From contig NZ_CP058559.1 in assembly GCF_014467015.1 (NCBI RefSeq), forward strand, positions 806,001 through 870,000: DNA of 64,000 nt, read 5' to 3'. The stretch comes from Alkalicella caledoniensis (GTDB lineage: Bacteria; Bacillota; Proteinivoracia; Proteinivoracales; Proteinivoracaceae). The notes beneath the pieces were generated by a model. That model ran no database searches, was not told where the DNA came from, and was given only the letters and a program-made list of their open reading frames with translations. Both the position numbers and the translations under genes were made by a program. How positions within the stretch are numbered: the first letter of the stretch is position 1; each line of letters starts with the position of its first letter. Shown here in pieces: positions 27,082-62,160 of this stretch.

Positions 27082-28114
27082 CTCCGACTACTTGAGTTAA
27101 TGCATAGAGAATAATACCGTTACTAACTAACATCCTAGTAATTTCAGCCAAGCTTCCTTGTTCTAATAAATTATTTGCCACTGGCAGAGCAACTACTAAC
27201 AAGCCTTGAAACAAAAATGTTCCTATTAAAACATGGGTTATAGTAGCATTTCTTACATTGGCACCTCCAATTAGCACCGCAGCAACTGCATGAAAACCCA
27301 TAAACATGGGTGCTTGGTAAAGCTGTAAAAATCCAAAGCTTTGTGCATAGACAATAATCCCTATAGCCCCTAGTATAGAAGATAAAATAGTTCCAATGAT
27401 TCTGTACTTATCTACATTTAACCCCGATGCCACAGCAAATTTTGGGTTGTCCCCTACTGTTTTCATAGCAATTCCTGTTTTACTCCTTAATACTAGCCAC
27501 ATGATAAAGCACATAAGGAGCCCGAACAAAATCAAACCTGTAGGCACCCTAAATGCCCCTATATTAAAGTGCCAAAGATTATTAAGTAAATGTCGAAACC
27601 TTCCCTCAAGGGAAATGGTGGTCCTGATACCTTTTCCCATGGCCCATGCCATTTCTGGATTTTTTATGGGGAGTACCATCCACCCGATACTCATTAAAGA
27701 CACCGCTGAGAAACCTACATAAGTGGCCACCATCATCTCAGATCCCTTTACCTTGTTTAAAAGCCAACCATAACCCCAACCCACTATTGCTGCCAGTGGT
27801 ATAGCCATAAGTATGGCACCAATAAAGGCTGATCTCCCTACCAGTTCCATTTCAATACTTATAATGGCCCCTAAAAGTCCTGCTAAAATTCCTAAGGGCA
27901 ATCCAAAATTAGGCCCTATCCCACTTAGTATACCTGGCACCATGGCTAAAACTAAAACTACATTCATTGCAACCCTAACTATTACATCTGTCATAAGTCC
28001 ACCAAAGGGTATTCCGATGATGCTTGAGGTTACTGTGAGTATAAAGAAAAAAACAGCTATTATTATTCTAGGTAGCCCGGCTTTTTTATAGAAAGATTGA
28101 AACCTCTCAATCAT
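27074..28114 (-). CDS. ABC transporter permease, BMP/nucleoside-type, first subunit
   Basis: The 346-residue BPD_transp_2-family permease shows GGLMTDVIVRVAMNVVLVLAMV and GIGPNFGLPLGILAGLLGA near the N-terminus and FMGFHAVAAVLIGGANVRN in the conserved cytosolic-loop region. The ATG start abuts the stop codon of the ATPase gene (TAAATG) with AAAGGAGGTTAAC upstream. Two different permeases with one double ATPase is the arrangement of YufOPQ-like nucleoside/sugar importers. Confidence 0.87.
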   Translation of the reverse strand: MIERFQSFYKKAGLPRIIIAVFFFILTVTSSIIGIPFGGLMTDVIVRVAMNVVLVLAMVPGILSGIGPNFGLPLGILAGLLGAIISIEMELVGRSAFIGAILMAIPLAAIVGWGYGWLLNKVKGSEMMVATYVGFSAVSLMSIGWMVLPIKNPEMAWAMGKGIRTTISLEGRFRHLLNNLWHFNIGAFRVPTGLILFGLLMCFIMWLVLRSKTGIAMKTVGDNPKFAVASGLNVDKYRIIGTILSSILGAIGIIVYAQSFGFLQLYQAPMFMGFHAVAAVLIGGANVRNATITHVLIGTFLFQGLLVVALPVANNLLEQGSLAEITRMLVSNGIILYALTQVVGGE

Positions 28115-29716
28115 TTAGTTAACCTCCTTTCTGCTTATGTTGTGGTACTCTCCCGCCATCATCAATCCGAAATCCACGTCACTATCCTCTGGTTTAAGGA
28201 TTCCTTCTAACTTGCCTTGATTTATTATGGCTATCCTATCACAAACAGAACGAAGTTCTGCCAATTCACTGGAGGTCATTATTATTGTCATACCCAGTTG
28301 CTGGTTTAACTTAACTAAAGTGTCCAATACCAATTTTTTTGCTCCAACATCTATCCCCCGAGTTGGTTCAGAGACAAATAATATGTTAGGTTCAAGGGTT
28401 AAAGCCCTTGCTATACAGACCTTTTGCTGGTTACCCCCACTAAGCCTTCTAGTGATTTGGGTTACACCTGTACACCTTATATCTAATTCTTTTTTATATT
28501 TAAGTGCATGCTGCCTTATACCCTTTGTATCTTTTTGAGTAAATATAACAAAATCCTTTAGAAACTTATCTTTATTTTGCATGGCAGTTATGGCTATATT
28601 CATCTCAATGGACATGTTCAGTAACAATCCAACTCCCCGCCTATCTTCTGAAACAAAAGCTATATTTTTCTTCATTGATTCCCTAGGGTCATTGAGCATT
28701 AGTTGTTCACCATCTATTGTGACATCACCTGTTGATGGATAAAAGCCACTAATTCCATTTGCTATACCTATCTTACCTTGACCTGCCAGTCCACCTATAC
28801 CTAATATTTCCCCTTTATAAATGTCTAAATCAACACCCTTAACCTCTTCTCCAGGCATCTCTACCTTAAGGTCTCTAATGGACATAAGTACTTTTTTGTT
28901 TTCTTGATTAAATTCACCTTTATCAACCTTTTCTACTTTTCTACCAACCATCAACTCTGCTAACTCCATTACATTTGTGTCTTTTTTATCTCTTTTTGCA
29001 ACCATATTTCCGTCCCTTAGAACACTGATACTATCGGCTACATCCATTACCTCATCTAACCTATGGGTGATAAATAAAATTGCTATGCCCTTATCAGCAA
29101 TTGTTCTCATGGCACCTAGTAAATTTTTTGCTTCACTTTCAGTAAGTACAGCTGTTGGTTCATCAAATACAAGTATCTTCAGATTATTTTTATCTATCTC
29201 ACGGGCAATTTCAACAAATTGCATGTATCCCACTGGTAGTCCCGCTATTTTAGCCCACTCGTCCACATTCAATTCAAGGGTTTTTAACGCTTTTTTAGCA
29301 TCCTTATTCATTTTTTCAAAGTCTAGGGTTTCTAGCTTTTTCCCTAGTATACTGCTTATTATGTTTGGTTTTGTTATTTCCCTATTAAGTTTAATATTTT
29401 CTGTGATAGTATACTCCGGTATTAACATAAACTCTTGGTGAACCATACCAATACCAGAGTCCATAGCCTGTACAGGAGACTTAATTAATACCTTTTTACC
29501 ATCAATAATCACTTCACCTTCAAAGCCACCTGTTGAATGTATAACAGGCATCCCAAATAGTATATTCATAAGAGTTGACTTACCTGCTCCATTCTCACCT
29601 AATATGGCATGTATCTCTCCAGGTTTTATTGATATATTTATGTCCTTTAGAACCCGTGTTCCATAATAGATTTTCCCTATATTATTCATTTGTAAAATAT
29701 AATTATCTCTGCCCAA
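28115..29716 (-). CDS. ABC transporter ATPase, two fused nucleotide-binding domains
   Basis: The 533-residue RbsA/YufO-like ATPase has a first domain with Walker A GENGAGKSTLMNILFG (~38) and FDEPTAVLT, and a second domain with GGLAGQGKIGIANGI in the Walker A place and signature LSGGNQQKVCIARAL (~430). Only the first Walker A is canonical; the second is degenerate, as usual for this family. TTG start behind GGGGGAGG. The 92-base gap from the binding-protein gene carries a stem-loop that may lower expression of the membrane complex relative to the binding protein. Confidence 0.88.
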   Translation of the reverse strand: MGRDNYILQMNNIGKIYYGTRVLKDINISIKPGEIHAILGENGAGKSTLMNILFGMPVIHSTGGFEGEVIIDGKKVLIKSPVQAMDSGIGMVHQEFMLIPEYTITENIKLNREITKPNIISSILGKKLETLDFEKMNKDAKKALKTLELNVDEWAKIAGLPVGYMQFVEIAREIDKNNLKILVFDEPTAVLTESEAKNLLGAMRTIADKGIAILFITHRLDEVMDVADSISVLRDGNMVAKRDKKDTNVMELAELMVGRKVEKVDKGEFNQENKKVLMSIRDLKVEMPGEEVKGVDLDIYKGEILGIGGLAGQGKIGIANGISGFYPSTGDVTIDGEQLMLNDPRESMKKNIAFVSEDRRGVGLLLNMSIEMNIAITAMQNKDKFLKDFVIFTQKDTKGIRQHALKYKKELDIRCTGVTQITRRLSGGNQQKVCIARALTLEPNILFVSEPTRGIDVGAKKLVLDTLVKLNQQLGMTIIMTSSELAELRSVCDRIAIINQGKLEGILKPEDSDVDFGLMMAGEYHNISRKEVN

Positions 29717-29750
29717 TGGTCCTCCCCCTTTATGTAATCTTTATATAGGT

Positions 29751-29782
29751 AATATAAGGTTGCAAAAATGCAACCTTATATT
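29751..29782. other. Intercistronic stem-loop after the DUF3798 binding-protein gene
   Basis: A perfect 14-bp stem AATATAAGGTTGCA / TGCAACCTTATATT with a 4-base loop. On the operon strand no T run follows, so it is likely an mRNA-stabilising hairpin or partial terminator that favours the binding protein. Confidence 0.65.
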
Positions 29783-29808
29783 ATTTTGTTTTAGATTTAT
29801 TTAGTTTT

Positions 29809-30948
29809 TTAAAACACTATATGATCTGATAAATATAGGAAGTAGTTTTTAGGATCATTAGGATCATCTTCGTCACCATATATAGTTAACTGTACACTTG
29901 TGCCAGCAATTTCTTCCATAATGGATTGTAGTTTTGCCTTGTCTACCCTACCATCTGTTTCACCGTTTAGGTAAGCTATAGCGTACTCTACACCAGCTTC
30001 GATGAACATCATGTTTACAGGAACTGGCCATGTGGCAACTCTTCCCGATGCTCCAGCTTCAGCAACCTTCTCGCCAATCATTGTAAGAATATAGTCTAAG
30101 TCACCTTGGAACTCTTCAGGAACAGGAATTGCTAGGGCCGCTGGATATGCATGATATGGAGATGGACAGCATTGAACTGGGAATATACCTTTGTGTTCAA
30201 TTGTCTGTCTGATAAGTGGCTCCATCATTGAACAGTTTGTTGCAAATAACGCTGTGTCTTCACCGTATTCGGCTATACGTCTAGGAACATCTTCATTGAT
30301 AAATTGTTGAGTTCCTGGAACTCCTGCATCCCCTGTTGGGTCTGGAGCGTCTACTTCAACAAAAGTCATACCTAATCTTTGAGCTTCAGCCTTCATTCTG
30401 TCTCTTCTTACTGCTAAAAATTCGATGGACATATGTCTTGGGAAAGAATAGTGAACTAATGTCTTAGCACCCATATCATGTGCTTGTTGAGCAATTTGTT
30501 CACCTCTACCTAAATCGTCAGTATTTAAGATAATATCCCCTTTTGTTTTTATTAAGTCTTGATCCTCTTGTGGAGCACCCAGTATAAATAACATATCTGG
30601 TCTTACTTCCCTAACTCTGTCTATTGCAGCAGCTGCCCCAGGCACTGCTTGAACCATTACTATAGCTTTGACATCTGGGTCATCAGCCATAGCCATCATG
30701 TTTGTAATGGTTGTCTCTACCTCTTGCATAAATCTATCTGGGTAGGTAGTAGTAACTATCATGTCAGGATATTTCGCTAGCATATCTTGGGCCATCCTAA
30801 ACTCTTCCTCGCCCTGGGATACAGTACCGGTCATGATGCCTATTTTGAATGTTCCATCTGCATTGTCGTCAGTATCACTTGTGTCACAAGCTGCTAAACT
30901 CAATGCCATAATAGCTACTAACAGCAAAATAAATAACTTTTTGAACAT
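29809..30948 (-). CDS. DUF3798 substrate-binding lipoprotein
   Basis: The 379-residue lipoprotein has a signal sequence ending in LSLAAC (Cys20) and an acidic linker, followed by a periplasmic-binding-protein fold starting KIGIMTGTVSQGEEEFRMAQ, the DUF3798 pattern. ILNTDDLGRGEQIAQQAHDMGAKT and the GxPSPYHAYPAALAIP-like stretch fit the same family. It delivers an unidentified ligand to the permease/ATPase encoded downstream. AAGGGGG lies upstream of ATG. In the leader an inverted repeat CTCAC / GTGAG (30983-30998) could be a regulator site, but this is weak. Confidence 0.82.
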   Translation of the reverse strand: MFKKLFILLLVAIMALSLAACDTSDTDDNADGTFKIGIMTGTVSQGEEEFRMAQDMLAKYPDMIVTTTYPDRFMQEVETTITNMMAMADDPDVKAIVMVQAVPGAAAAIDRVREVRPDMLFILGAPQEDQDLIKTKGDIILNTDDLGRGEQIAQQAHDMGAKTLVHYSFPRHMSIEFLAVRRDRMKAEAQRLGMTFVEVDAPDPTGDAGVPGTQQFINEDVPRRIAEYGEDTALFATNCSMMEPLIRQTIEHKGIFPVQCCPSPYHAYPAALAIPVPEEFQGDLDYILTMIGEKVAEAGASGRVATWPVPVNMMFIEAGVEYAIAYLNGETDGRVDKAKLQSIMEEIAGTSVQLTIYGDEDDPNDPKNYFLYLSDHIVF

Positions 30949-31185: not shown

Positions 31186-32394
31186 TTAGGAATTTTTCTT
31201 TCTAGTTGAGATATCAACCCATACGGCAAGCAGTAACACTAAGCCTCTTACTATAAGTCTTTGGGTTGTTCCCACGTCTAGTAATAACATACCATTGTTA
31301 AGTGTTGACATTACTAGGGCACCTACTATTGCACCAACAATTGTTCCTTCTCCACCTAAGGTACTAGTACCACCAATGATGGCAGCAGCTATAACATCTA
31401 GTTCCATTGCCTGCCCTGCAGATGCAGCAGCTGATCCAACCCTAGCTGTGTATACAATACCGCCGAGTGCTCCTAATATACCAGAGGATATAAATATCCA
31501 TAAAGTTCTCTTTTTAATATTGATACCTGACAGTTTTGCTGCTTCCTTGTTACCACCTATGGCGTATACATGTCTTCCGAAAGTAGTTTTAGTGGTCAGG
31601 AAGGTATAAAATGCCCCAACAGCCATCAACAAAATAATAGAGTAGGGAACCCCTAGGTACATGGCCATAATGTAAAACACTGCGCTTATCAATGCACCTA
31701 CTAGCACTAGTTTTGCAACAAATAAGTTTAATGGCAAAACTTCAAATTCATATTTTAGTCTTTCTTTGCGATTTCTAAACTCAAAGAATAAATATACTAA
31801 GATTACTAAAAGCCAGATAATTACTGTGGTATCATGGGGGATATTATCCCTTGGACCACTTTCAAAAAACATAGTAGGGAGATAACCCTGCCCTAGTTTG
31901 TTAAATGAAGACTGTGTAGCTATGGTCTCACCTCTAGTAACACCAAGTAGTAAGCCGTTGAAAATCATCATGCCTGCTAATGTAACAATAAAAGCGGGAA
32001 CTTGTCTATATGCAACCCAGTACCCCTGCCACAATCCTATTAAAGCTCCTATGGCTAAAGTTATTAAAATAGCTGGGAATATACCAATTCCATATCTGGC
32101 CGGTAGTATGGCTACAATAGCCCCTGTTAAGCCAACCACTGCGCCAATGGAAAGATCTATATGTCCTGCAACTATAACCAGTACAACCCCACATGTCAGG
32201 ATGGCTATATGAGCAGTCTGTAAAAACAATGTTGATAGGTTTCTCGGGGTGAAAAACACATCACTTAATAGGGAGAATATTACCATAATACCTATCAGTG
32301 CTATAAACATCATATACTGCTTTATGTTATTGTTTAGGGATATTTTAATAATTTCCAATGGATTGCGATCATTTATGTTTGTTTTGCTTTGCAT
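31186..32394 (-). CDS. xylH: Xylose-type ABC transporter permease (XylH-like)
   Basis: The ~402-residue BPD_transp_2 permease has about ten to eleven helices: GVVLVIVAGHIDLSIGAVVGLTGA near residue 60-80, VPAFIVTLAGMMIFNGLLLGVTRG, and the coupling segment GGNKEAAKLSGINIKK followed by GSAAASAGQAMELDVIAAAIIGG. This matches XylH of the D-xylose XylFGH importer. I start at ATG 32394 with AGAGGAGG 10 bases upstream. It is the last gene of the xylFGH cluster, 35 bases after xylG. Confidence 0.88.
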   Translation of the reverse strand: MQSKTNINDRNPLEIIKISLNNNIKQYMMFIALIGIMVIFSLLSDVFFTPRNLSTLFLQTAHIAILTCGVVLVIVAGHIDLSIGAVVGLTGAIVAILPARYGIGIFPAILITLAIGALIGLWQGYWVAYRQVPAFIVTLAGMMIFNGLLLGVTRGETIATQSSFNKLGQGYLPTMFFESGPRDNIPHDTTVIIWLLVILVYLFFEFRNRKERLKYEFEVLPLNLFVAKLVLVGALISAVFYIMAMYLGVPYSIILLMAVGAFYTFLTTKTTFGRHVYAIGGNKEAAKLSGINIKKRTLWIFISSGILGALGGIVYTARVGSAAASAGQAMELDVIAAAIIGGTSTLGGEGTIVGAIVGALVMSTLNNGMLLLDVGTTQRLIVRGLVLLLAVWVDISTRKKNS

Positions 32395-32429
32395 AAAAAT
32401 CAAACCTCCTCTAAATCTTTAATCCTAGT

Positions 32430-33950
32430 TTATTCTCCGCCTGTGGCGTAATGCATTATTTGCTCTTGGTTTGTGTTCTGCCAGTCTAGATCAGCGGTTA
32501 TTTTGCCTTCATGCATCACTAGTATACGATCACTAATACCTAAAATCTCAGGTAATTCAGAAGAAATCATTATAATACATACCCCTTGCTCGACTAATTT
32601 GTTCATTATATTATAGATTTCATATTTAGCACCAACGTCTATGCCTCTAGTGGGTTCATCTAAAACTAGTATTTTAGGTGCTGCCATTAACCATTTGGCT
32701 ATAACAACCTTTTGCTGATTTCCTCCACTTAAGTTCATAGCCTTTTGCTCAATGGATGGAGTCCTTATTTTTAAAGCATCAACATAATGATTCGATACTT
32801 TTATTTCCTCATTCTCATTTATTCCAGCTGCAGAAGAAATCTGTTTTAAGCTTGAAAGAGTTATATTTTCTTTTATATTCATCATCAATACAAGCCCTGA
32901 CTTTTTTCTGTCCTCTGAAAGATAACAAAGTCCCTTTTGAATTGCATCTTCTGGATTTTTTATATTTGCACTTTTACCATCTATGATTATCTCACCAGAC
33001 TTATTTACACCATAGGCCCCAAAGATACTCATAAACAATTCTGTACGTCCTGAACCCATTAGCCCAGAAATTCCAAGGATTTCTCCCCTTCTAGCTTGGA
33101 AACTAATATCCTTTATAATTTTCCTGTCAGGAATTTCTGGATTATAGACATTCCAGTTTTTAACCTCAAGGACAGTTTCACCAGGATTATGGGGTTTACG
33201 GGGAAATAATTGTGTCAGTTCACGGCCAACCATGCCAGTAATAATCTTGTTTTGCGTAACATTTTCATCGTTTGGATATGTGTCAACTGTTTTTCCATCC
33301 CTAAGTATGGTTATGGTATCAGCAATAGCTTTAACTTCTTTAAGTTTATGAGAAATATAAATGCAACTTATTCCCTCTTTTTTGAGGTTTCTAATAATCT
33401 CAAGGAGATTTTCACTGTCATCTTCGTTTAAGGCAGCGGTAGGCTCATCTAAAATTAGTACACTGATTTTCTTTGAAAGGGCCTTTGCTATCTCTACTAG
33501 TTGTTGTTTTCCAATACCTAAATTTAAAATGAGGGTTTCAGGACTAGCAGTAAGACCAACTTCCTTAAGGAGTTTTTTTGTTTGTGTTGTAGCTTCGTTC
33601 CAATCAATAATACCGTATTTCCCAATTTCGCTTCCTAAAAATATATTTTCGCAGATACTCATCTGCTTTACTAATGTGAGTTCTTGATAGATTATTCCTA
33701 TACCAGCAGATTCGCTGTCCTTGGTATTTTGGAATTTTTGTTCAGTACCATTTATTAAAATTTCCCCTTGATAGGTTCCATGGGGATATACACCACTTAA
33801 GACTTTCATTAGTGTAGATTTTCCTGCTCCATTTTCTCCTACCAGAGCGTGTATTTCACCCTTTTTAAGTTTGAAGTTAACTTTATCCAGTGCTTTAACC
33901 CCTGGAAACTCTTTCACCATATCCTTCATTTCCAGTATATATTCTGACAT
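32430..33950 (-). CDS. xylG: Xylose-type ABC transporter ATPase (XylG-like)
   Basis: The ~506-residue double ATPase has Walker A GENGAGKSTLMKVLSG (~37) and LGIGKQQLVEIAKAL with LDEPTAALNEDD in domain 1, and GLMGSGRTELFMSIFG and LSGGNQQKVVIAKWL with LDEPTRGIDVGAKYEI in domain 2. It is the sugar-importer class that includes XylG, AraG and RbsA; xylose is inferred from the XylF-like partner. Start ATG 33950 follows AAAGGTGG; the upstream GTG lies in that site. A stem-loop separates it from xylF. Confidence 0.9.
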   Translation of the reverse strand: MSEYILEMKDMVKEFPGVKALDKVNFKLKKGEIHALVGENGAGKSTLMKVLSGVYPHGTYQGEILINGTEQKFQNTKDSESAGIGIIYQELTLVKQMSICENIFLGSEIGKYGIIDWNEATTQTKKLLKEVGLTASPETLILNLGIGKQQLVEIAKALSKKISVLILDEPTAALNEDDSENLLEIIRNLKKEGISCIYISHKLKEVKAIADTITILRDGKTVDTYPNDENVTQNKIITGMVGRELTQLFPRKPHNPGETVLEVKNWNVYNPEIPDRKIIKDISFQARRGEILGISGLMGSGRTELFMSIFGAYGVNKSGEIIIDGKSANIKNPEDAIQKGLCYLSEDRKKSGLVLMMNIKENITLSSLKQISSAAGINENEEIKVSNHYVDALKIRTPSIEQKAMNLSGGNQQKVVIAKWLMAAPKILVLDEPTRGIDVGAKYEIYNIMNKLVEQGVCIIMISSELPEILGISDRILVMHEGKITADLDWQNTNQEQIMHYATGGE

Positions 33951-33970
33951 AGAGCAATCCACCTTTCTAA

Positions 33971-34006
33971 AAATAGGAGGAATAACTTTTAAGCTATTCC
34001 TCCTAT
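33971..34006 (-). other. Stem-loop between xylF and xylG, partial terminator
   Basis: The 12-bp stem ATAGGAGGAATA / TATTCCTCCTAT is followed by TTTTTA on the minus strand. It looks like an attenuating terminator that would keep xylG and xylH below xylF, as is common for binding-protein operons. The xylG ribosome binding site lies just beyond it. Confidence 0.7.
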
Positions 34007-34027
34007 GATTATCCCTAAGTTAAACTA

Positions 34028-35059
34028 TTAGTTAAGATCTGCTTCTGTGATATAGCCACTTCCAACAAGAACTTCTCTAATGTTGTCTTCAGTAATAACA
34101 GTTGCTTCAAGAAGAACTGATGGTACATCTACAGTTCCATTATTCACTGTAGCATTAGTAGAAACATTCTCACCTTTAGCTAATTTGATAGCTATTTCGA
34201 TGGCTTTTTCCCCTAGATCCCTTGTATCTTTGAAAATTGTCATAGATTGAGTACCTTCAACGATTCTCTTAGCAGCAGCTTTCTCAGCATCTTGACCAGT
34301 TATTGGCACTTGACCACCTAGACCTTGAGCTATTAAAGCTTGGATAGCTGCACCAGCAGTACCATCGTTTGGAGCTAGTATAGCATCTACTTCATTGTTG
34401 TTTGCAGCTAAAGCTGCTTCAACTATTTGAAGTGCATTTTCTGGAACCCAGTTCTCAACAGCTTGCTCAGCAATTACCTCGATGTCACCACTATCAATTA
34501 GTGGTTGGATGTATTTCATAGCGCCTTGCTTAAATAAAGTAGCGTTGTTGTCTGTTGGAGCACCAGACATAATGATGTATTTTCCTGCAGGTACTAAATC
34601 AGTTATGAATTTACCTTGTAACTCACCAACCCTTACATTGTCAAATGATAAATATACATCTAACTTGTCTGTGTTAGCAATCAGACGGTCATAGGATATA
34701 ACTGGAACACCTTCAGCGTTTGCTTTGTCTACAAGTGACGCTGCTGCAGCTGCATCGTGTGGAGCCAAGATTAGTACATCAATACCTTGTGTTAACAATG
34801 CTTCAACTTGAGTAATCTGCTCTTGCATGTTAGCATCTGCTACTCTTACGATAAGTTCAATACCTAATTCAGCAGCAACTGCTTCCATTTTTTCTTTATC
34901 TCTAACCCATCTTTCTTCCCTTTGAGTTGGAAGAGATAAACCTACTTTGATAACTTTTTCATCATCGTCACCATCTGTATCACTGGAAGTACAACCAGCG
35001 AACAGACCTAATGCTAGTAAGCTAACTAAAAACAGTGCTATAATCTTACTCTTTTTCAT
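34028..35059 (-). CDS. xylF: D-xylose-binding lipoprotein (XylF-like)
   Basis: The 343-residue secreted lipoprotein (lipobox LFAGC, Cys22) has a type I periplasmic-binding fold very like XylF. VGLSLPTQREERWVRDKE opens the mature domain, and ADANMQEQITQVEALLTQGIDV, VPVISYDRLI, VYLSFDNVRVGELQG and ITGQDAEKAAAKRIVEGTQSMTI follow. Arg, Asn and Asp residues of these loops contact the sugar in XylF. It is predicted to capture D-xylose outside the membrane and hand it to XylGH. AAAGGGGGAAAGTG precedes ATG. It is the first gene of xylFGH. Confidence 0.9.
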   Translation of the reverse strand: MKKSKIIALFLVSLLALGLFAGCTSSDTDGDDDEKVIKVGLSLPTQREERWVRDKEKMEAVAAELGIELIVRVADANMQEQITQVEALLTQGIDVLILAPHDAAAAASLVDKANAEGVPVISYDRLIANTDKLDVYLSFDNVRVGELQGKFITDLVPAGKYIIMSGAPTDNNATLFKQGAMKYIQPLIDSGDIEVIAEQAVENWVPENALQIVEAALAANNNEVDAILAPNDGTAGAAIQALIAQGLGGQVPITGQDAEKAAAKRIVEGTQSMTIFKDTRDLGEKAIEIAIKLAKGENVSTNATVNNGTVDVPSVLLEATVITEDNIREVLVGSGYITEADLN

Positions 35060-35398
35060 TTCACTTTCCCCCTTTTTTTATATACATAGGACATTATTTT
35101 AATGCCTATTGTATTACAACAGTTAAACAAACAATTGAAAGCCAATGACTTAAGCTAATATAACCCCTGTCCTTCTTAATGAAATTATACTATAGCAGTT
35201 ATTTAGGGAGACTGATTATCTCGGGTAACATTTTGTTCATACCTTTACTTTTTTGTGTGACTAAAAACTAAAATCTACTAACTAGTAAATTTTTGTAAAC
35301 AAAAAAATACTATAGTTGGACATGCTTAGGGTTCGGATCCCTGCCCCTACAGATAAACTAAAAACCAATGAAATTGGCTAGGCCAATTTCATTGGTTT
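35060..35398 (-). promoter_or_regulatory. Intergenic region upstream of xylF, 339 bp
   Basis: The region contains the terminator of the upstream sensor operon (35360-35400), a tRNA-like 3'-end fragment (35327-35351) and about 260 AT-rich bases before xylF. A TATAAT-like hexamer reads leftward near 35185-35195 without a convincing -35, consistent with an activated promoter for xylFGH under the adjacent two-component system. I see no clear catabolite-control (cre) box. Confidence 0.4.
35327..35351 (+). other. tRNA-like 3'-end fragment (possible att-site relic)
   Basis: TAGGG-TTCGGAT-CCCTG forms a 5-bp stem with a 7-base loop like a tRNA T-arm, followed by CCCCTAC and A as an acceptor 3' strand plus discriminator. 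No 5' half, D-arm or anticodon arm is present upstream, and the loop has G where tRNAs have the invariant A58. It is at best a relic such as an integration scar, and could be chance. Confidence 0.25.
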
Positions 35399-35400
35399 TT
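35360..35400. terminator. Terminator of the xylose-sensor operon
   Basis: A very strong perfect stem of about 19 bp, AAAAACCAATGAAATTGGC and its complement, with a 3-base loop, overlaps the stop codon of the gene that ends at 35399. It is followed by T residues on the minus strand. Confidence 0.9.
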
Positions 35401-36469
35401 AGTTATTGTTTCTATAAATTTCATCCACCATATGGAAGCCGTCCTTGATTATGGTTTCCTCTAAATTATGTATGTTTACAGGGATTGGTTCTAATTTATA
35501 GTAAGGAACATTATAGGTTCCATCATTTATTGTGTTTACTATATTAGTGAGAGGTCCATCCTTAGCTAGCTGAATGGCCATGGAAGCAGCGGCACCTGCA
35601 AGTTTCTCAATGGGTTTATACACTGTCATATGCTGTGTGCCTTCCACAATTCTTTGACATGCAACAAGATCTGCGTCCTGTCCTACTACCAAAGTGTTTC
35701 CAGCAGTCCTATAAAGGGACAGTGCCTCTATAACACCATCTGCAAGACCATCATTTCCCGCAATCACTGCGTCAATTTTAGCACCTTCCCTTAATAGCTC
35801 ATCAGTTATATTAAAGGCATATTCCTTCATCCAGTTTGGAGCCCATTCCTCTTTTATTATACTGGCAGCACCTTCAGCAACTTTGCTTTTAAGGACTTTA
35901 TCGTATCCTCGTTTAATCATCATTGTATTATGATCACTGGTTGCTCCGTTTACAATCAAAATATTGCTACCAACAGGAGAATTCTCTAAAACATATTGTG
36001 CCATTATTTCTCCAACCCTTGTGTTATCAAAGGAAATGTACAAATCAACATTTGAATTAAGTACCAGTCTATCGTAGGATATAACCTTTACTCCATTTTT
36101 TTTTGCTAATTCCACTGCCTCAACAGCTTTATTGTGATCATTTGGCACAAGGATCAATACGTCTATATCTTGTCCTAGGAGATACCTTACTTGTTTTAAC
36201 TGGTCCTGATCATCATTATTAGCATTCTGAACTATAATATCTGCACCCATCTCCTTAACTTTTGCCATCAAGATATCCCTATCTTTAATCCAACGTTCTT
36301 CCTTTAAAGTTCCTAAGGAAAAACCAACTTTGATTCTTTTATCATCCCCGAATTCATTAGAGTTCGATGAATCTGTGTAAATAACTTGAACTACTCTAAC
36401 AGTCAAGGTAACAAAAACTGTAAAAAGTATAGCTACTAATGCCCCCCGCAATAGTCTTTTATCAGCCAA
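35399..36469 (-). CDS. Membrane-anchored xylose-binding-like sensor protein (XylFII-like)
   Basis: This 356-residue protein has an uncleaved N-terminal membrane helix (LLRGALVAILFTVFVTLTV, ~5-25), no lipobox, and an extracytoplasmic domain closely similar to XylF (VGFSLGTLKEERWIKDRD, VKVISYDRLVL, LYISFDNTRVGEI, VVGQDADLVACQRIVEGTQ). In Clostridium, XylFII with LytS and YesN forms a xylose-sensing system that activates xylFGH; this gene fits that role by homology and position. TTG start behind GAGGGGTGAT. It begins one base after the response-regulator gene. Confidence 0.8.
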   Translation of the reverse strand: MADKRLLRGALVAILFTVFVTLTVRVVQVIYTDSSNSNEFGDDKRIKVGFSLGTLKEERWIKDRDILMAKVKEMGADIIVQNANNDDQDQLKQVRYLLGQDIDVLILVPNDHNKAVEAVELAKKNGVKVISYDRLVLNSNVDLYISFDNTRVGEIMAQYVLENSPVGSNILIVNGATSDHNTMMIKRGYDKVLKSKVAEGAASIIKEEWAPNWMKEYAFNITDELLREGAKIDAVIAGNDGLADGVIEALSLYRTAGNTLVVGQDADLVACQRIVEGTQHMTVYKPIEKLAGAAASMAIQLAKDGPLTNIVNTINDGTYNVPYYKLEPIPVNIHNLEETIIKDGFHMVDEIYRNNN

Positions 36470-36470
36470 T

Positions 36471-38075
36471 TTACATCACCCCTCGTGATATGGAATTTGC
36501 TCTATACTCAGTTGGTGTCATCCCTGTTGCCTTTTTAAACAGTTTACTAAAATAGTTGGGGTCGGTATAACCAACCTCATAACACGCTTCCTTTACATTG
36601 GCATTTTTATCTTTTAATACCATTTTTGCCTTTTCAATCCTTAACTCTGTAATATAATCAACGAAATTTTTCCCTGTTGACTCCTTAAAAAATTTGCTAA
36701 AGTGATGGTAACTCATACTGATTTCCTTTGCCACATCATCTAATGTTAGATTGTGCTGGTAGTTTTCATCTATATATTCTAAAGCCTTTATAATAAATCC
36801 ATTTAGCTTTTTGCTCTTTTTCTCCTCCACATTTACAAGTAAGTTCTTTAAGTAGTTCATGTAATTCAATTTAATCTCATTAGGGTCGTCTATACTTAAT
36901 AGCTGTATCAAAAACTCACTATCTAGTAGACTATCATCTTGAACGTCTCTATTTACAGTCCTTTGAGATATTATTATTAGTTCTATTAGCTTGGACTTTA
37001 TTTTATTGACATCATTTGGGTTGTTAGCTGTAAGCCACAAAAATAGCTCTTCAAATATTTCAAGAACACCCTTAAGATCACCTGTGGATAATTTATCTAA
37101 GTAAAGCTTCTCTTTATGTATAGGGTAGTTGTCTTGCTGTGCTAGCACTCCATGAAAATCCTCAAAATGGGTGACTGTTTCTCCCTTACCACTGTTTACT
37201 GATTTAGATGCTTCTTTATAGGATTTTGTGAATAATTCTATGTTGTAACCTTTACCTATGCCAATTTCGAAAGGTATTTTTACATTGCGTGCAATTTTTT
37301 CCCCTAGCTTATTTGCATAGGATATTGATATATTTCGCAAATCATAGGCATCTGTTTTCTCGTCCATGGGTATAAATGCCACAACCCTATCTAAAAGTGG
37401 AGGCCCTATCAAACAAGGACATATATTTTTTAGTTGCATGGAAAACATGTCGTAAAATTTTTGTTTTAATAGACTTATACTTATAGTATCTGTTTTTGTA
37501 CAAGCTTCATGGTTTTTTACTGTAGCCACCATGGCATAGCCATACCTTAACTTCATACCGAAAATCTCTTCATAAAAGGATAGATCGTCCACAGTATTAC
37601 TATTGAACAAAAGTGAATGGATGAATTGACTTTCGAGATGGGGGATTATAGTATTCATTTTTTCCATTAGTATCATTTCTTTTTTTAGTGCTTCTTTCTT
37701 TGAGTAGATAATCTGGGATAAATCGTTAATCACATTCACTAGCTTATATTTGTTTACTGGTTTTGTTATGTACTCGTAAACTCCTAGATTCACAGCATCT
37801 TTGGCGTATTGAAAATACTCGTATGCACTAATAATTACAAATTCTGCATCGTTGTAGGAGTTTTTAATTTGCCTTATGGCTTCTATCCCATTTATTCCAG
37901 GAATGTGAATATCCATAAGTATTATGTCAGGCTTTAGGTCTAAAGCCTTTTCTATGGCTTCCCTTCCTGAACTTGCAGAACCAACTACCTCAACATCATC
38001 TAAAAACTTATGGATTATAAATTTTATGGATTGAATAACAATATGCTCATCGTCAGCAATCAACAGTTTGATCAT
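36471..38075 (-). CDS. YesN-type response regulator of the xylose-sensing system
   Basis: The 534-residue regulator has a receiver domain (~1-120; ADDEH, phospho-Asp in IILMDIHIPGING ~55, Lys in YITKPVNKYK), a long middle domain of the YesN family, and a C-terminal AraC-type double helix-turn-helix (~430-530; YHHFSKFFKESTG and DPNYFSKLFKKATG). It is predicted to activate xylFGH. It overlaps the kinase gene by 23 bases and abuts the XylFII-like gene. GGGAGTG precedes ATG. Confidence 0.88.
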   Translation of the reverse strand: MIKLLIADDEHIVIQSIKFIIHKFLDDVEVVGSASSGREAIEKALDLKPDIILMDIHIPGINGIEAIRQIKNSYNDAEFVIISAYEYFQYAKDAVNLGVYEYITKPVNKYKLVNVINDLSQIIYSKKEALKKEMILMEKMNTIIPHLESQFIHSLLFNSNTVDDLSFYEEIFGMKLRYGYAMVATVKNHEACTKTDTISISLLKQKFYDMFSMQLKNICPCLIGPPLLDRVVAFIPMDEKTDAYDLRNISISYANKLGEKIARNVKIPFEIGIGKGYNIELFTKSYKEASKSVNSGKGETVTHFEDFHGVLAQQDNYPIHKEKLYLDKLSTGDLKGVLEIFEELFLWLTANNPNDVNKIKSKLIELIIISQRTVNRDVQDDSLLDSEFLIQLLSIDDPNEIKLNYMNYLKNLLVNVEEKKSKKLNGFIIKALEYIDENYQHNLTLDDVAKEISMSYHHFSKFFKESTGKNFVDYITELRIEKAKMVLKDKNANVKEACYEVGYTDPNYFSKLFKKATGMTPTEYRANSISRGVM

Positions 38076-39597
38076 TTAAAGCACTCCCTTTTTTATACGG
38101 TAACTTTAAAGTTACCTTAGTGCCATAACCTACTTTGCTTTCTATCTCAAATACCTCATTGATGTTTTTACTGTTATAAAACAATCTCAGTCTGTCAATT
38201 ACATTGTGTATACCTATACCACTGGCATGTTTCCCTGTATTCTTTTTAGAACCCCCTGGGGAAATGATAGTTTTTATCTTACTTTCGTCTATCCCAATAC
38301 CGTTATCTTCTACTTCTACTCGGATTATTCCATCACTTTCATTAACTGTTAGCTTTATTTCACCACTTTTTTCTAAGTTTTCTATACCATGGATAAAAGC
38401 ATTTTCCACTATTGGCTGAATTATAGCGCATGGTGTTTCTATGTTTAACAAGTGCTCATCTACATCTAAGGTAAAATCTATCTTGTCTCCAAACCTAGTC
38501 TTTAATATATACATATAATTTTGTGAGTAGTTTATTTCATCCTTTAAGGTTACGGCTTCATCTAGTTTTCGAAGGTTATATCTAAACAACTGGGCTATAT
38601 TTTCTATAAACTCAGAAGTATTGTCAGCCCCTTCCATCATTGCCAGTTGTCCAGCTGCGTTAAAGGTATTAAATAAAAAGTGGGGGTTTATCTGAGACTG
38701 TAAGGCCTTAAGTTCAGCATCCCTTAATAAACTCTTCATTTTAAAATTTTCCATCTCTTGTACTTTAAGCTTTTTTTCCATTTCGGCCTGTTTTTTTATC
38801 TCATCAATATAAGTTTTTATATTTACAACCATTTTCTCAAAGGCAGTGGCCAAAGTGCTTATTTCATCCCCTGTTTTTATATTGAATGGTTGTATATCAA
38901 AATCACCCTGGGATATTTTCTCGGCAGAGTGGGCAAGTTTGATGATTGGTTTAGTTAACCTATATGCAAACATAAAGGCTAAAAATATGTTTAGAGTTAC
39001 AGAAACAACAATTATAATTGCGTTTATATAGCTTAAGAAAGTCATATTCTTAGTAATTAAATTATACTGAGAAGACCCTTCCTGTAGCTTGTATGTAAGA
39101 AGATTATTTATGTACAGTTTTATATGTTCACTAATTTCAATGGAGCGAGTAAAGTGTGCTATGTATTCGTGACTGATACGCCCCCTCTTAGCCTTTACAG
39201 CCTGGTCTGTCTCCACAAGTAAATTATCTATCATGTATCCTATATTTTTTAGTATTAAAATATCATTATCATAGCTACTATCCCTTGGAATATTCTTTGC
39301 TTTAACATCTAGGGAGTTATATATTGTATAATAATCCAGTAGTGCATCGGAGGACTTTGTTGTTAAGTACTTTTCCACTTCCATCATCATTGTATTGACA
39401 TCGTTATTTAGCTCGTTTAGATAAACATAGTCAATTATAATTGTATTTAGCTTATCTAAAACTAGCTTGGCATTGTAGTAAGAGAATATACTTGTTGCAC
39501 CTAAAATCAGTGTGACTATAAGATAGTAAACCACTAATTTTTTTCTTATACCGGTTATAGGGAGTATGTATTTAGTCATTTTCTTGTTGGTATTCAT
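38053..39597 (-). CDS. LytS/YesM-type sensor histidine kinase of the xylose-sensing system
   Basis: The 514-residue kinase has two membrane helices (~22-40 and ~185-207) enclosing a helical extracytoplasmic domain, then HAMP (~208-260), the phosphoacceptor region LKALQSQINPHFLFNTFNAA (~300) and an ATPase domain (VEDNGIGIDES, HASGIGIHNVIDRL). The extracytoplasmic part has no obvious ligand pocket, so it probably reads the binding proteins encoded on either side. It overlaps the upstream binding-protein gene by 26 bases; GGAGAAC precedes ATG. Confidence 0.88.
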   Translation of the reverse strand: MNTNKKMTKYILPITGIRKKLVVYYLIVTLILGATSIFSYYNAKLVLDKLNTIIIDYVYLNELNNDVNTMMMEVEKYLTTKSSDALLDYYTIYNSLDVKAKNIPRDSSYDNDILILKNIGYMIDNLLVETDQAVKAKRGRISHEYIAHFTRSIEISEHIKLYINNLLTYKLQEGSSQYNLITKNMTFLSYINAIIIVVSVTLNIFLAFMFAYRLTKPIIKLAHSAEKISQGDFDIQPFNIKTGDEISTLATAFEKMVVNIKTYIDEIKKQAEMEKKLKVQEMENFKMKSLLRDAELKALQSQINPHFLFNTFNAAGQLAMMEGADNTSEFIENIAQLFRYNLRKLDEAVTLKDEINYSQNYMYILKTRFGDKIDFTLDVDEHLLNIETPCAIIQPIVENAFIHGIENLEKSGEIKLTVNESDGIIRVEVEDNGIGIDESKIKTIISPGGSKKNTGKHASGIGIHNVIDRLRLFYNSKNINEVFEIESKVGYGTKVTLKLPYKKGSALNDQTVDC

Positions 39598-40567
39598 GTA
39601 AGTTCTCCATGGTGATCACCTTCACCCCAGTTTCTATAAAAGTAGAAACATTGTTATTTTCCTTTACGTTTATCAATGCCTTTACACTTTCATAGCCCAT
39701 TTCATAGGGCTCACTCATAACAGTTCCATAGATTATTCCCATGGAAATATCCCTTAATATATTTTCGCTATCCCCATAGCCTATAAGTGTGAAGTCTCCA
39801 ATCTTATTACCGTCCACGATGAGCTGTGAAGTTCCTAAAGTGTCCACAACAGTTGCGGTGAATATGGCATCGATGTCAGGATGATTATTTATTATGGATT
39901 GAGTAATCTCCTCTGCACTTAAAATTCCCATTTGTGATGTAAACACCTGGGAAACCTTCATTTCGGGAAAGTCCTTTATTGTAGTTAGAAAACCATTTAA
40001 CTTAAGATTTTGGCTTGCTGTATCTAATTCTAGATTACTACTTACTATAATTGCAATATTTGCCACACCCTCAGTGGCTTGAATCATAAGCTGAGCAGCC
40101 TCTTTTCCCAACACAAAACTATTTGTACCCACAAACGCGCTCCGGTTACTGTTTTTACTGTCATTTTCTATGGTCACTATGGGAATCCCTTTGGCATATC
40201 CTCTGTTGATAAGAGACGTCACTTCAGCTCCCGTTGACGCATGTGTTATTATACCATCAACCCTAGATGTAATAGCTATATCAAGATACCTTAGTTCCTC
40301 ATGGTGATTGTTAAACCTTGGGGCATTATGTTCCACAACTACTCCGTACTCTGTAGCAGCATCTTGAACTCCCCTAAGAATTTCCTTCCAAAAAGGATCA
40401 ACTAGATTCTGTCCTACAAAGTAGAAATGATAAAGAGGTTTATCTGGTTCTTTAACATCTTCCCTTTGATAAAGGTACAAAAAAGCACTGTTTACAGAGA
40501 TTAGCACAATAAGGATAATTATTATATGCTTGTTAATAAATTGGTATAATTTACTAATCCTACTCAT
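39572..40567 (-). CDS. Membrane-anchored sugar-binding-like sensor protein
   Basis: This 331-residue protein has an N-terminal membrane anchor (HIIIILIVLISVNSAFLYLY, ~14-33) and a type I periplasmic-binding fold of the ribose/LacI group (FVGQNLVDPFWKEILRGVQDAA, VDGIITHASTG, GIPIVTIENDS, ALINVKENN). It has no lipobox. It is clearly different from the XylF-like proteins downstream and may recognise another pentose or sugar. First gene of a four-gene sensor operon in which the kinase start lies inside this gene. GAGGGGGC lies upstream of ATG. Confidence 0.8.
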   Translation of the reverse strand: MSRISKLYQFINKHIIIILIVLISVNSAFLYLYQREDVKEPDKPLYHFYFVGQNLVDPFWKEILRGVQDAATEYGVVVEHNAPRFNNHHEELRYLDIAITSRVDGIITHASTGAEVTSLINRGYAKGIPIVTIENDSKNSNRSAFVGTNSFVLGKEAAQLMIQATEGVANIAIIVSSNLELDTASQNLKLNGFLTTIKDFPEMKVSQVFTSQMGILSAEEITQSIINNHPDIDAIFTATVVDTLGTSQLIVDGNKIGDFTLIGYGDSENILRDISMGIIYGTVMSEPYEMGYESVKALINVKENNNVSTFIETGVKVITMENLHEYQQEND

Positions 40568-40659: not shown

Positions 40660-40694
40660 AAAAAGCTCGAACCCATTTTAGGGTTCGAGCTTTT
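40660..40694 (-). terminator. Terminator of the AOR operon
   Basis: The stem AAAAGCTCGAACCC / GGGTTCGAGCTTTT has a 6-base loop and T residues on the minus strand. It lies about 10 bases after the moaD-like stop codon. Confidence 0.85.
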
Positions 40695-40704
40695 CAGCTT
40701 TCGT

Positions 40705-40902
40705 TTATCCTCCTGCCATCATATGAATTACCTTCACATCGTCTCCGTCTTTTATTTCCACGGTGGCATATTCTTCTTGTGGGATAAGTTCATCATTTAT
40801 CCTTACATAAATTTTAGGAAAGGTGTATTTCTTCTTTTCTAAAAGTCCCTTAACAGTGAGGCCTTCTTCCCATTGAAAGTCCCTGCCATTGACTTTGATC
40901 AT
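40705..40902 (-). CDS. MoaD/ThiS-family sulfur-carrier-like protein
   Basis: The 65-residue ubiquitin-like protein ends in AGG, the C-terminal Gly-Gly used for thiocarboxylate formation. The strand pattern (MIKVNGRDFQWEEGLTVKGL, then VEIKDGDDVKVIHMMAGG) is typical. Its ATG overlaps the AOR gene end by 4 bases, so it probably serves pterin cofactor sulfuration for that enzyme; this partnership is common for AOR genes. A ThiS role is possible but not supported by context. Confidence 0.82.
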   Translation of the reverse strand: MIKVNGRDFQWEEGLTVKGLLEKKKYTFPKIYVRINDELIPQEEYATVEIKDGDDVKVIHMMAGG

Positions 40903-43067
40903 TTTGTTTCCCCAACTTTTTCAAGAACTTCTAGAACCTCTGGTAAGTCCATACCGATTTCCTTTAAATGTTCAATCTTGGGTATACCCTCTTTTGTCCA
41001 TCCTCTTCGAGCATATACAGTATCTTGTAATTTCTCAAACTGCTCTTCACGGTATTTCCTTAACACCTTTACCTTCTCTTGGGTTGTTTTACCATCTACT
41101 TCATAGCCTAAAATTTCCTTCAACTGGCTATCATATCTATCCTGTCTTGATTCATACTCTTCCACAGTTACAGGTCCAATGGAACGATAGGGGGCTCTAT
41201 CGTGTACCCTTAATCCTTTACCCATTCTAATATTGAAGACCTTTTGGAAATTATATACTCTCTCAGATTCCCTTATGAGTTGGTCTTTATCTATACTCTT
41301 TCCAGTAACTGCATTACAGATATCCACATAGTTTTGTACATGCTCTGGGATTTTAGCTGGTTCATTTGCATGGGCATTGCTTTCAGGTACAATATCATTC
41401 CATGGCAGCTTACACATACCGTAAAGTCCAAACCATGTTCTAAACATCGGGAAGTAATGTAGGGCTTCGGCTTTATCATCAAAAGTAGGAATTTGGTTAT
41501 TTACCATATCCATGAAAATAAGCCATGCTTCATCATGCTGAGGTCCCTTATTAGTAAGGGCATATCCCCCTTGCTGGGCTAATGATTCCTTTGATAAGTA
41601 TTGAGAGTACTCAAGACCCTTTTGCTCCATACCTATATCATTTAGGAAGCTTTCATCTGCTCCGTATTTTTCCACAAAAAGCTTCTTCATTCTGTGAACA
41701 CCTTGACCTGCAACCTTACCGAAACCTTCTCCCCGGGACATTTGGTGTAACAGTTCAAGGGCAGCATCGCTATTTCCGAATTTTAGTTCAAGGCCACCTG
41801 TTATTTCTTTGTTTATGATGCCGTTTTCGTAACAGTCCATTATAAATGCTGTGATGGTACCGAAGGATATGGTATCCACAGCGTATGTGTCACAATAGAA
41901 ATTTAGCTCTAAAACAACATGGGGATCAAATATCCCACAGTTTGAACCAAGACCTGCAGCGTTTTCGTATTCTGGCCCGTCCACTGTAACTAAGTGCCCT
42001 TTGTAAGGACCTGTTTTTAACTCAAACTTATCAGCTGCCTTTGCACATGCCATGGAACACCCATACCAGCAACCATCTGCCATTCCCTGGGTAATATATT
42101 TTTCAATAAAAACTTTGGATGAAATTTTATGTGTATCCTTATGCATTCCAAACTTAAAGTTGTGAGTAGGTAGCAAATCATATTCATCCATAACCTCAAT
42201 AATATTTGCTGTACCTATTTTTCTCATGCCATTTTGTTTGTCGTCAAGCTTGCATATCTCTTTATGAAGTTTAATACCCGTCTGGTTAATTGTACCTTGA
42301 TCAACAGGATTATTTAGGTTACCTTTAACTCCTTGGTATTTCACAACAAGGGCTTTTATTTTTTTATTTCTAAATACTGTTCCAATACCACCCCTGCCTG
42401 CTTGCTTAAGGCGTGCTACCTTCCTTCTAACATCATAGAAAGTAAAGTTTAAAAGTCCTACAAGTGTATGCTCTGCAGCGGTACCTGCTGTTACAACAGC
42501 CACATTTCTCTTATCTTCCTCGCTGTCCGCATACATTTCAGTAAGTTGCTCACCTATTACATGACCATCTATGGCCTCTAGGGGAGCTTCTTCTATCTTT
42601 ACAGTACCGTTGTTACCATCGATTACAATTATTACATCTTTGTCTGCTTTCCCTTGTATCTCTAATGCATCCCATCCAGAAAACTTAAGTAATGGTCCGA
42701 AATATCCTCCTACATTACTGTCAATTGGTATGCCAGTTAGTGGAGAAATGGTGCAGATAAGAGACTTCCCTGAACCTGGGTATTGGGTAATACCGCATAT
42801 TGGCCCTCCTGCGATAACTATCTCATTTTCGGGATCATTCCATTTAGTTTGTGGTGTAACTGCATTCCACAAATACCACAGACCAAAACCTTTCCCTCCA
42901 ATGAATTTTTCCTTCATTTGTTGTGTAACTTCCTTAGTCTTAATTTTGTTTTCACTTAAGTTTATATACAAAGTTCTGTTAGTATAACCTTTATCGACAT
43001 TTCCTAACTGATATGTGTATTCTTGTAAAGTTACATGTTCATCCTTAATTTTTTTAACATCCATCAT
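40899..43067 (-). CDS. aor: Aldehyde:ferredoxin oxidoreductase (tungsten-type AOR family)
   Basis: The ~722-residue enzyme of the AOR family oxidises aldehydes to acids with ferredoxin using a tungsto- or molybdo-bispterin and one [4Fe-4S] cluster. The N-terminal domain has FIGGKGFGLWYLW and GPICGITQYPGSGKS. The cluster motif reads GCWYGCSMAC (C-x3-C-x3-C) with a fourth Cys in LYGMCKLPW; classical AORs have C-x2-C-x3-C. Start ATG 43067 follows GGGGAG; the upstream GTG is in the ribosome binding site. It could oxidise aldehyde leaking from the diol pathway or make alcohol from acid in reverse; neither is proven. Confidence 0.88.
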   Translation of the reverse strand: MMDVKKIKDEHVTLQEYTYQLGNVDKGYTNRTLYINLSENKIKTKEVTQQMKEKFIGGKGFGLWYLWNAVTPQTKWNDPENEIVIAGGPICGITQYPGSGKSLICTISPLTGIPIDSNVGGYFGPLLKFSGWDALEIQGKADKDVIIVIDGNNGTVKIEEAPLEAIDGHVIGEQLTEMYADSEEDKRNVAVVTAGTAAEHTLVGLLNFTFYDVRRKVARLKQAGRGGIGTVFRNKKIKALVVKYQGVKGNLNNPVDQGTINQTGIKLHKEICKLDDKQNGMRKIGTANIIEVMDEYDLLPTHNFKFGMHKDTHKISSKVFIEKYITQGMADGCWYGCSMACAKAADKFELKTGPYKGHLVTVDGPEYENAAGLGSNCGIFDPHVVLELNFYCDTYAVDTISFGTITAFIMDCYENGIINKEITGGLELKFGNSDAALELLHQMSRGEGFGKVAGQGVHRMKKLFVEKYGADESFLNDIGMEQKGLEYSQYLSKESLAQQGGYALTNKGPQHDEAWLIFMDMVNNQIPTFDDKAEALHYFPMFRTWFGLYGMCKLPWNDIVPESNAHANEPAKIPEHVQNYVDICNAVTGKSIDKDQLIRESERVYNFQKVFNIRMGKGLRVHDRAPYRSIGPVTVEEYESRQDRYDSQLKEILGYEVDGKTTQEKVKVLRKYREEQFEKLQDTVYARRGWTKEGIPKIEHLKEIGMDLPEVLEVLEKVGETK

Positions 43068-43084
43068 TATGGCTCCCCCCTCCA

Positions 43085-43489
43085 CTATTTAGCTGCTACC
43101 TTATCTTCGTCCTTCTCAGTTATAAATATGGCATTTGTTGGACATTGTTTTGTACACAGGCCACAAGCTATACACTTAAATGGCTCGATGTAGTCATCAT
43201 GCTGCATCATAGCTTCTTCTGGGCAGAACCCCACACACATAAAACAGCCAACGCAGTCTTTCTTTTTAATTCTTACTATCCCTTTATTATCCCTTACTAT
43301 GGTTTCAACTGGGCATATATCAATACACACCCCACATTGATTACAAGTAGTGATAATTTCAGGACCATCTTCACTAATACGAATACATGATTTACTTGGG
43401 TCTTCAGTCTTAAAATACGCTTTAGAGCAAACATCTTCACAAGCATGACACTGGATACATAGGCTATCATCCTTAGCTAAATACTTCAT
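43085..43489 (-). CDS. Ferredoxin-like protein with four 4Fe-4S cluster motifs
   Basis: The 134-residue polyferredoxin has four CxxCxxCxxxC motifs: CIQCHACEDVC (~12), CNQCGVCIDIC (~47), CVGCFMCVGFC (~74) and CIACGLCTKQC (~103). It should bind four clusters and act as electron partner for the AOR gene 17 bases downstream. I start at ATG 43489, preceded by GGGAGGGG; the longer open frame has no ribosome binding site. It resembles HycB/AOR-associated ferredoxin subunits. Confidence 0.88.
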   Translation of the reverse strand: MKYLAKDDSLCIQCHACEDVCSKAYFKTEDPSKSCIRISEDGPEIITTCNQCGVCIDICPVETIVRDNKGIVRIKKKDCVGCFMCVGFCPEEAMMQHDDYIEPFKCIACGLCTKQCPTNAIFITEKDEDKVAAK

Positions 43490-43670
43490 AACTAATCCCC
43501 TCCCTGTATTTATTTTGTTAAAATTATATAACGAGACCATATTATCTAGTCCCCTAAATAAACATTGTAATCCCCCACACCATTAAACTGCAATTTTAAA
43601 TTTTAGCTATAATTATAATTGTAACATTTTTTAGTATTTTTTCAATTAAAAATAATGATTTAGTACCAAA

Positions 43671-58586: not shown

Positions 58587-58833
58587 GACAAAGTCGTAGA
58601 CCCTCGAATGGGCATATTGACTTAAGCAGTATCATTAACTTGAGGAGTAAGGTTTAAGAGGTTTTTGGCTAAGTGGAAGAAGGGGCGAAGAACAGGACGT
58701 TCTGAGATCTCCTTTGAGCCATGGACGGCGAATTGGAGATGTCCCCTTCTGGAGCATAGACAAAAGACCTTAAACCTCGACGCAGAGTTTGTACTGTGTA
58801 GATCAATATGCAACATTCTTAAACGACTTTGTC
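58587..58833 (+). ncRNA. Large structured RNA-like element, copy 2
   Basis: Same architecture as copy 1: base stem 58587-58597/58823-58833, GCATATTGA 58612-58620/58803-58811, AGGTTTAAG paired with CTTAAACCT, AGAAGGGG paired with CCCCTTCT, a hairpin 58689-58703 with loop AGGAC and a branch around loop ATGGAC (58721-58726). About 65-70% of positions match copy 1, with most helix changes compensated. Like copy 1 it is on the plus strand and points at the terminator of a leftward gene (thrS). No promoter identified. Confidence 0.72.
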
Positions 58834-60903: not shown

Positions 60904-61165
60904 CAAAAAGACACTCTATCCCTTAATTCAAGGGACGAATGTCTTGATTCGCGGTTCCACCCAAGTTGCCAAAGCTATGCTCTGACCTCTCAAAAAGACT
61001 TATATCGGATCTTACCCGGTACAGTTTCGTAAAAATCACTACTACTGTACTGCTCAGGGTTAGTTTTCACAATTGGACAAACAGTGTTCTTTCAGCCAAG
61101 GAACACCTCTCTAAAAGTTTGCTACCCAATGCTACTCTTCCCTATCATGGCATTAGTAATTTAAT
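60904..61165 (-). promoter_or_regulatory. T-box leader of thrS, specifier ACU (Thr)
   Basis: On the minus strand the conserved T-box GGGTGGAACCGCG lies at 60962-60950, followed by a terminator stem (AAGACA...TGTCTT around CCCTT/AAGGG) and a U run. Stem I carries AGTA, AGAGAG and GGCTGAAAG motifs. After the loop-E GAA, the specifier codon reads ACT at 61064-61062. Uncharged tRNA-Thr would stabilise the antiterminator and switch thrS on. Confidence 0.9.
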
Positions 61166-62139: not shown

Positions 62140-62160
62140 TAAATATTTACCATTAGACTA

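Follow-up and report, generated by a model that had tools for sequence, protein, structure and literature searches.

A probable four-gene sensor cassette next to xylFGH

The window analysed here, a stretch of 64,000 nucleotides from the genome of Alkalicella caledoniensis, carries a minus-strand cassette of four genes that encode two membrane-anchored periplasmic-binding proteins, a LytS-type sensor histidine kinase and a YesN-type response regulator (Table 1). An ORF check of the window sequence found all four genes where the first-pass annotation had placed them and bore out its description of their spacing, with the XylFII-like and LytS genes sharing 26 bases (positions 39572-39597), the LytS and YesN genes sharing 23 (38053-38075) and a single base (36470) separating the YesN gene from that of the XylF-like protein. 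A ribosome-binding-like sequence lies 5' of each of the four starts. The domain content agrees with the claimed set of one kinase, one regulator and two binding proteins: Pfam assigns Peripla_BP_4 to both binding proteins, HAMP, His_kinase and HATPase to LytS, and a receiver and an AraC-type HTH to YesN. Each binding protein has a single N-terminal hydrophobic segment (residues 15-33 in the XylFII-like and 9-27 in the XylF-like protein), and a search for a lipobox in these two proteins found none; LytS combines two hydrophobic segments with its HAMP domain. Unlike the transmembrane-anchored XylF-like protein, the transport XylF whose gene lies downstream is a typical lipoprotein.

Table 1. Positions of the cassette, its flanking terminator-like elements and the xylFGH region in the window.
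Feature	Position	Strand	Details
XylFII-like membrane-anchored periplasmic-binding protein	39572..40567	-	331 aa; first gene of cassette; assigned by ORF, PDB sequence search and fold
LytS-type sensor histidine kinase	38053..39597	-	514 aa; TM 21-39, extracytoplasmic domain ~40-192, TM 193-211, HAMP, His_kinase, HATPase_c
YesN-type response regulator	36471..38075	-	534 aa; receiver and AraC-type DNA-binding domain
XylF-like membrane-anchored sugar-binding protein	35399..36469	-	356 aa; TTG start; fourth component, proposed xylose receptor
Intrinsic-terminator-like hairpin directly 3' of XylF-like gene	35358..35402	-	20+ pairs, -34.6 kcal/mol, z -8.3; sets cassette apart from xylFGH
Terminator-like perfect inverted repeat, then T's, upstream of cassette	40661..40694		ends the aldehyde ferredoxin oxidoreductase unit before the cassette
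Region upstream of xylF, putative YesN target	35060..35357	-	only divergent match to A4-8-N3-5-YAGAGG
xylF, transport-type D-xylose-binding lipoprotein	34028..35059	-	lipobox FAGC
xylG, sugar ABC transporter ATPase	32430..33962	-	domain models
xylH, sugar ABC transporter permease	31186..32403	-	best NCBIfam model GguB

Because a hairpin follows the XylF-like gene and an inverted repeat precedes the cassette, the four genes apparently form a single transcription unit apart from xylFGH. Among relatives, a terminator-like site is found within 110 bases after the XylF-like gene in 19 of 57 cases under a strict rule, with 0.7 expected from shuffled sequences. Of 21 cassette neighbours, 9 have the pattern A4-8-N3-5-YAGAGG 5' of xylF, compared with 0 of 22 elsewhere; since it was defined on the same sequences that were used for counting, this operator-like element is a lead only.

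Assignment of the two binding proteins

The described clostridial sensor of C. beijerinckii consists of a single XylFII protein with LytS and YesN, with xylFGH located downstream; its XylFII and LytS reportedly form a xylose-dependent complex and activate xylFGH. The first-pass annotation had noted that, unlike in this three-component system, a kinase and a regulator are flanked here by two dissimilar anchored binding proteins, and ORFs, transmembrane segments and homology all confirm it. Its assignment of the two roles, on the other hand, has to be reversed. The upstream protein, initially described as ribose/LacI-like, has its best PDB sequence matches in GanP of Geobacillus (6GQ0) and the XylFII protein of C. 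beijerinckii (5XSJ, 5XSS and 5XSD; E about 1e-39), and a fold search with its AlphaFold2 model (pLDDT 88.9) returned GanP, AraP (6SW4) and XylFII among the top matches. The downstream protein has its matches in E. coli XylF (250 bits) and an Actinobacillus homologue, and its model (pLDDT 88.5) reaches TM-scores of 0.89-0.91, by target length, to E. coli XylF (3M9W, 3MA0). It is thus the XylF-like protein that constitutes the extra component. Its score of 285.7 bits lies below the NCBIfam xylF equivalog cut-off of 389.55, as does that of the neighbouring transport XylF (357.3). The XylFII-like model shows its smallest rmsd to AraP 6SW4 (2.2-2.5), followed by the D103A variant of XylFII (3.1-3.4) and the 5XSJ/5XSS structures (4.1-4.3), a pattern that would weakly fit an open, ligand-free protein, although the conformation of a model may mean nothing.

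The cassette resembles the C. beijerinckii system in that the gene of a XylFII homologue adjoins that of a LytS-type kinase with two transmembrane segments, an extracytoplasmic helical domain and HAMP, the regulator is an AraC-type YesN protein and xylFGH lies downstream; it differs in possessing a fourth, XylF-type anchored protein, encoded one base after the regulator gene. The three-component operons AraPST and GanPST of Geobacillus stearothermophilus likewise include a XylFII-type binding protein, as reflected in the matches to AraP and GanP, but have only one such protein and respond to other sugars, and the GanP pocket is intact. With E. coli XylF, a free periplasmic transport protein, the XylF-like protein shares its fold and pocket residues, whereas it is membrane-anchored and encoded in a kinase operon. 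The closest parallel in gene order is the four-component fructose/mannose sensor LevQRST of Streptococcus mutans, whose operon (levT-S-R-Q) also encodes two anchored sugar-binding proteins; LevQ, encoded last, is essential and sets the specificity, and LevT has a modulating role (PMC3043104). This likeness, drawn from gene order and published description, extends to the arrangement of binding protein, kinase, regulator and binding protein and to the anchoring of both binding proteins. By contrast, LevS has up to five transmembrane segments, compared with two plus HAMP in LytS, and LevQRST controls a PTS and a fructanase (PMC3043104), whereas the predicted target adjoining the present cassette is the ABC transporter XylFGH.

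Occurrence of the cassette in other genomes

Relatives were sought in 398 genomes of the phylum, in named genome contigs (including those of Natronincola, Anaerosolibacter, Alkaliphilus serpentinus and Tepidibacillus) and in a second class represented by 349 genomes, which is referred to as Bacilli here since it includes the Tepidibacillus contig; an analysis of gene order followed. Of the 398 sampled phylum genomes, 28 (14 family codes) have the order XylFII-LytS-YesN-XylF-like, as do 12 of 37 kinase loci with an adjacent XylFII-type gene in the Bacilli sample, which was chosen by kinase similarity and examined after the first. L082 also carries a XylF-like gene, missed by one ORF caller. Conservation of the gene order across dozens of genomes argues that the arrangement is more than chance. 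Exact overlap lengths vary among relatives, with a short gap between the XylFII and LytS genes in most of them; the fourth protein is anchored by a transmembrane segment in most relatives and a lipoprotein in others, and xylFGH is divergently placed or missing in some cassettes. A search of viral contigs found no relatives.

Within the window's own class, the XylF-like protein was detected in the window genome only and in none of the 12 other genomes, yet Natronincola peptidivorans (L073) contains the whole locus (31186-40567 in the window), with xylFGH 78-81% identical. This combination suggests that the locus was transferred horizontally. Genus g132 (L064, L066, L070 and L119-L123) carries two four-component cassettes, one on each side of xylFGH, and in-frame stops occur in some of its XylFII-like genes. 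A further locus (L095:6548-15999) encodes a degenerate XylFII-like protein, a kinase, a regulator and an anchored Peripla_BP_4 protein, followed by an MglB-like transport system; it is possibly a four-component variant for another sugar.

Sugar-pocket residues of the two binding proteins

Pocket positions of XylFII-type proteins, numbered according to E. coli RbsB, are defined by the signature D89-R141-D215-Q235. In the XylFII-like protein of the window, these residues are replaced by E134, K189, G265 and S285, respectively. The first of these changes, from D to E, is conservative; it affects the position of D103 in C. beijerinckii XylFII, which aligns with RbsB D89 and is mutated to A in PDB entry 5XSD, whose title reads XylFII-LytSN complex mutant D103A. 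The window homologue thus differs from C. beijerinckii XylFII both at D103 and at the positions of R, D and Q.

This difference extends to other four-component systems. Among the 18 transport-type relatives of XylFII in the first sample, 16 retain D89, 17 retain R141 and all retain both D215 and Q235; the four-component XylFII proteins keep D215 in 2 of 41, Q235 in 2 of 41 and the full signature in none (0/41). A weighted scan of all alignment columns, blind to the pocket, placed Q235, D215, D89 and R141 among the five positions with the strongest conservation in intact relatives and the heaviest loss in four-component XylFII proteins. The Bacilli sample gave the same picture, with the signature intact in 0 of 12 four-component but 19 of 24 three-component systems; the four-component proteins of this group have mostly lost D89 alone and kept R, D and Q, and 10 of 12 carry A or G in place of D103. 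Taken together, the two samples contain an incomplete signature in 54 of 54 four-component loci, as opposed to 8 of 35 three-component loci (L042, L093, L096, L128, L130, L150, L151 and L161), the full signature being kept in the remaining 27. The XylF-like proteins, in turn, retain the E. coli XylF pocket: R16, W17, D90, R91, N137, W169, D197, D222 and K242 are kept in 47 of 47 proteins of the first set and N196 in 40 of 47, and all ten scored positions are kept in 12 of 12 Bacilli proteins. In the XylF-like protein of the window, D90 and R91 correspond to D133 and R134.

A predicted relay from the XylF-like protein to LytS

The reading we favour, by a modest degree of confidence, is that of a four-component sensor with a single xylose signal, in which the XylF-like protein would bind xylose, the XylFII-like protein would serve as a sugar-blind adaptor on LytS, and YesN would switch on xylFGH. 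In this scheme, the anchored XylF-like protein would capture extracellular xylose, close and act either via the XylFII-like protein or jointly with it; the latter, having lost its sugar-binding residues, would sit on the extracytoplasmic helical domain of LytS. The closed complex would then activate LytS, which would phosphorylate YesN, enabling it to activate xylFGH; compared with C. beijerinckii, a XylF-type protein would have taken over sugar recognition from XylFII. An adaptor that works without ligand is plausible, since XylFII, LuxP and TorT associate with their kinases whether or not ligand is bound (review, PMC6321045).

The first-pass annotation had instead suggested that the kinase may integrate two sugar signals. 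Such a system, with both proteins binding sugars (xylose and another pentose), could draw on the fact that both are folded periplasmic-binding proteins anchored beside the same kinase, on the aromatic W in the cleft, which is kept in 38 of 40 XylFII-like proteins, and on the influence of both LevQRST binding proteins on the sugar response (PMC3043104). We nevertheless regard it as unlikely, because the XylFII-like pocket signature is incomplete in all 54 four-component systems, including the residue mutated in the D103A crystal, while the XylF-like pocket is kept. It is similarly improbable, in our view, that the XylFII-like protein now recognises another ligand, perhaps not a sugar, such that the kinase would integrate xylose, perceived via the XylF-like protein, with a second signal. 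In the main clade, the altered E-K-G-S cleft is itself conserved, suggesting a retained function, and D13, E89, K141, G215-D216 and S235 (RbsB numbering) are strongly conserved in 20-odd members of the window's clade. In other four-component clades, however, the same pocket positions accept a wide range of residues (L, F, S, R, Y, I, P), a pattern that relaxed constraint explains better than one new ligand.

For the single-signal relay, the kinase offers a candidate contact site. S83, Y90, K137, R138 and R140 in the extracytoplasmic domain of LytS are conserved in the main four-component clade and variable in three-component and Bacilli four-component kinases. Judged by topology, they would lie near the membrane-distal tip of the four-helix domain, making this region a candidate docking site.

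Evolutionary history

In trees of the XylF family, the XylF-like sensors form two groups separate from the transporter XylFs, one of 38 or 41 rows (support 98-99) and one of 12 rows (support 100), which indicates that a dedicated XylF-like sensor would have arisen twice. The transporter XylFs that adjoin the cassettes are spread over several clades, and some cassettes lack one; the fourth gene thus travels with the kinase rather than the transporter. These relationships bear on the idea that the XylF-like protein just provides XylGH with another anchored substrate-binding component and plays no part in signalling. Its intact XylF pocket and the presence of xylFGH downstream in the window would suit this role, but we consider it very unlikely, given that the XylF-like proteins form clades of their own that stay with the kinase while transporters change, that the spacing from the regulator gene to theirs ranges from -133 to +353 bases and is usually only a few, that several cassettes have no xylFGH nearby and that a terminator separates the XylF-like gene from xylF.

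Returning to a XylF-like xylose receptor, the Bacilli sensor clade groups with the transport XylFs of seven three-component operons (L128, L042, L150, L151, L135, L136 and L161), five of which have an incomplete XylFII pocket. A transport XylF may therefore first have done both jobs and later have given rise to a dedicated sensor once another transporter had taken over. More broadly, it is conceivable, albeit with considerable doubt, that two lineages independently moved sensing from XylFII to a transporter-derived XylF and kept XylFII as a pseudo-receptor, blind to sugar, which links a second binding protein with the kinase, creating a two-protein relay on one kinase. The tree used for counting contains four changes of the four-component label and three of the pocket state; the deeper nodes of the XylFII tree are weakly supported. 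An independent-pairs test of pocket loss against the four-component label gave no significance, which such statistics cannot reach with so few events; the association between pocket loss and the fourth gene rests on few independent evolutionary events.

One of the three-component operons with an incomplete XylFII pocket, L042, encodes a membrane-anchored protein of 224 aa (L042:10147-10821) between YesN and xylF. It was considered as a binding protein and rejected, as it corresponds to DUF1980_C; L150 and L151 probably share this arrangement.

Implications for sugar sensing in Bacillota

An operon with the order binding protein, kinase, regulator and binding protein is already known from LevQRST; kinase type, sugar and target differ here. 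Our literature search for two sugar-binding proteins with one histidine kinase found no paper, nor did the literature searched yield a description of pocket loss in one partner of such a pair. The solved XylFII-LytS complex serves as a model for the perception of sugars by kinases via binding proteins. Should XylFII prove sugar-blind in many Bacillota, this model would not be transferable to them, the annotation of the gene as a sensor would be wrong there, and attempts to engineer xylose induction in these fermenters would have to target the XylF-like gene. The system would also be a clear example from nature of an adaptor that evolved from a ligand receptor, and its relatives would show what is plausibly the intermediate stage, a transport XylF doing double duty.

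Other features of the window

Directly after xylH, the gene of a DUF3798 lipoprotein (29809-30948) precedes those of a XylG-like ATPase (28115-29716) and a BPD_transp_2 permease (27074-28114); the region 25780-30948 looks like a second ABC importer, with the DUF3798 protein as its possible binding protein. Upstream of the cassette (40734-43540) lies what is apparently a single unit, with genes for a ferredoxin-like protein and an aldehyde ferredoxin oxidoreductase-like protein of 728 aa and with a small MoaD/ThiS-like ORF whose product ends in MMAGG. Rfam matches comprise a TwoAYGGAY RNA barely above threshold (58640-58788), a T-box leader (60928-61157) and a cspA thermoregulator (62111-62451), an element that is unusual outside enterobacteria.
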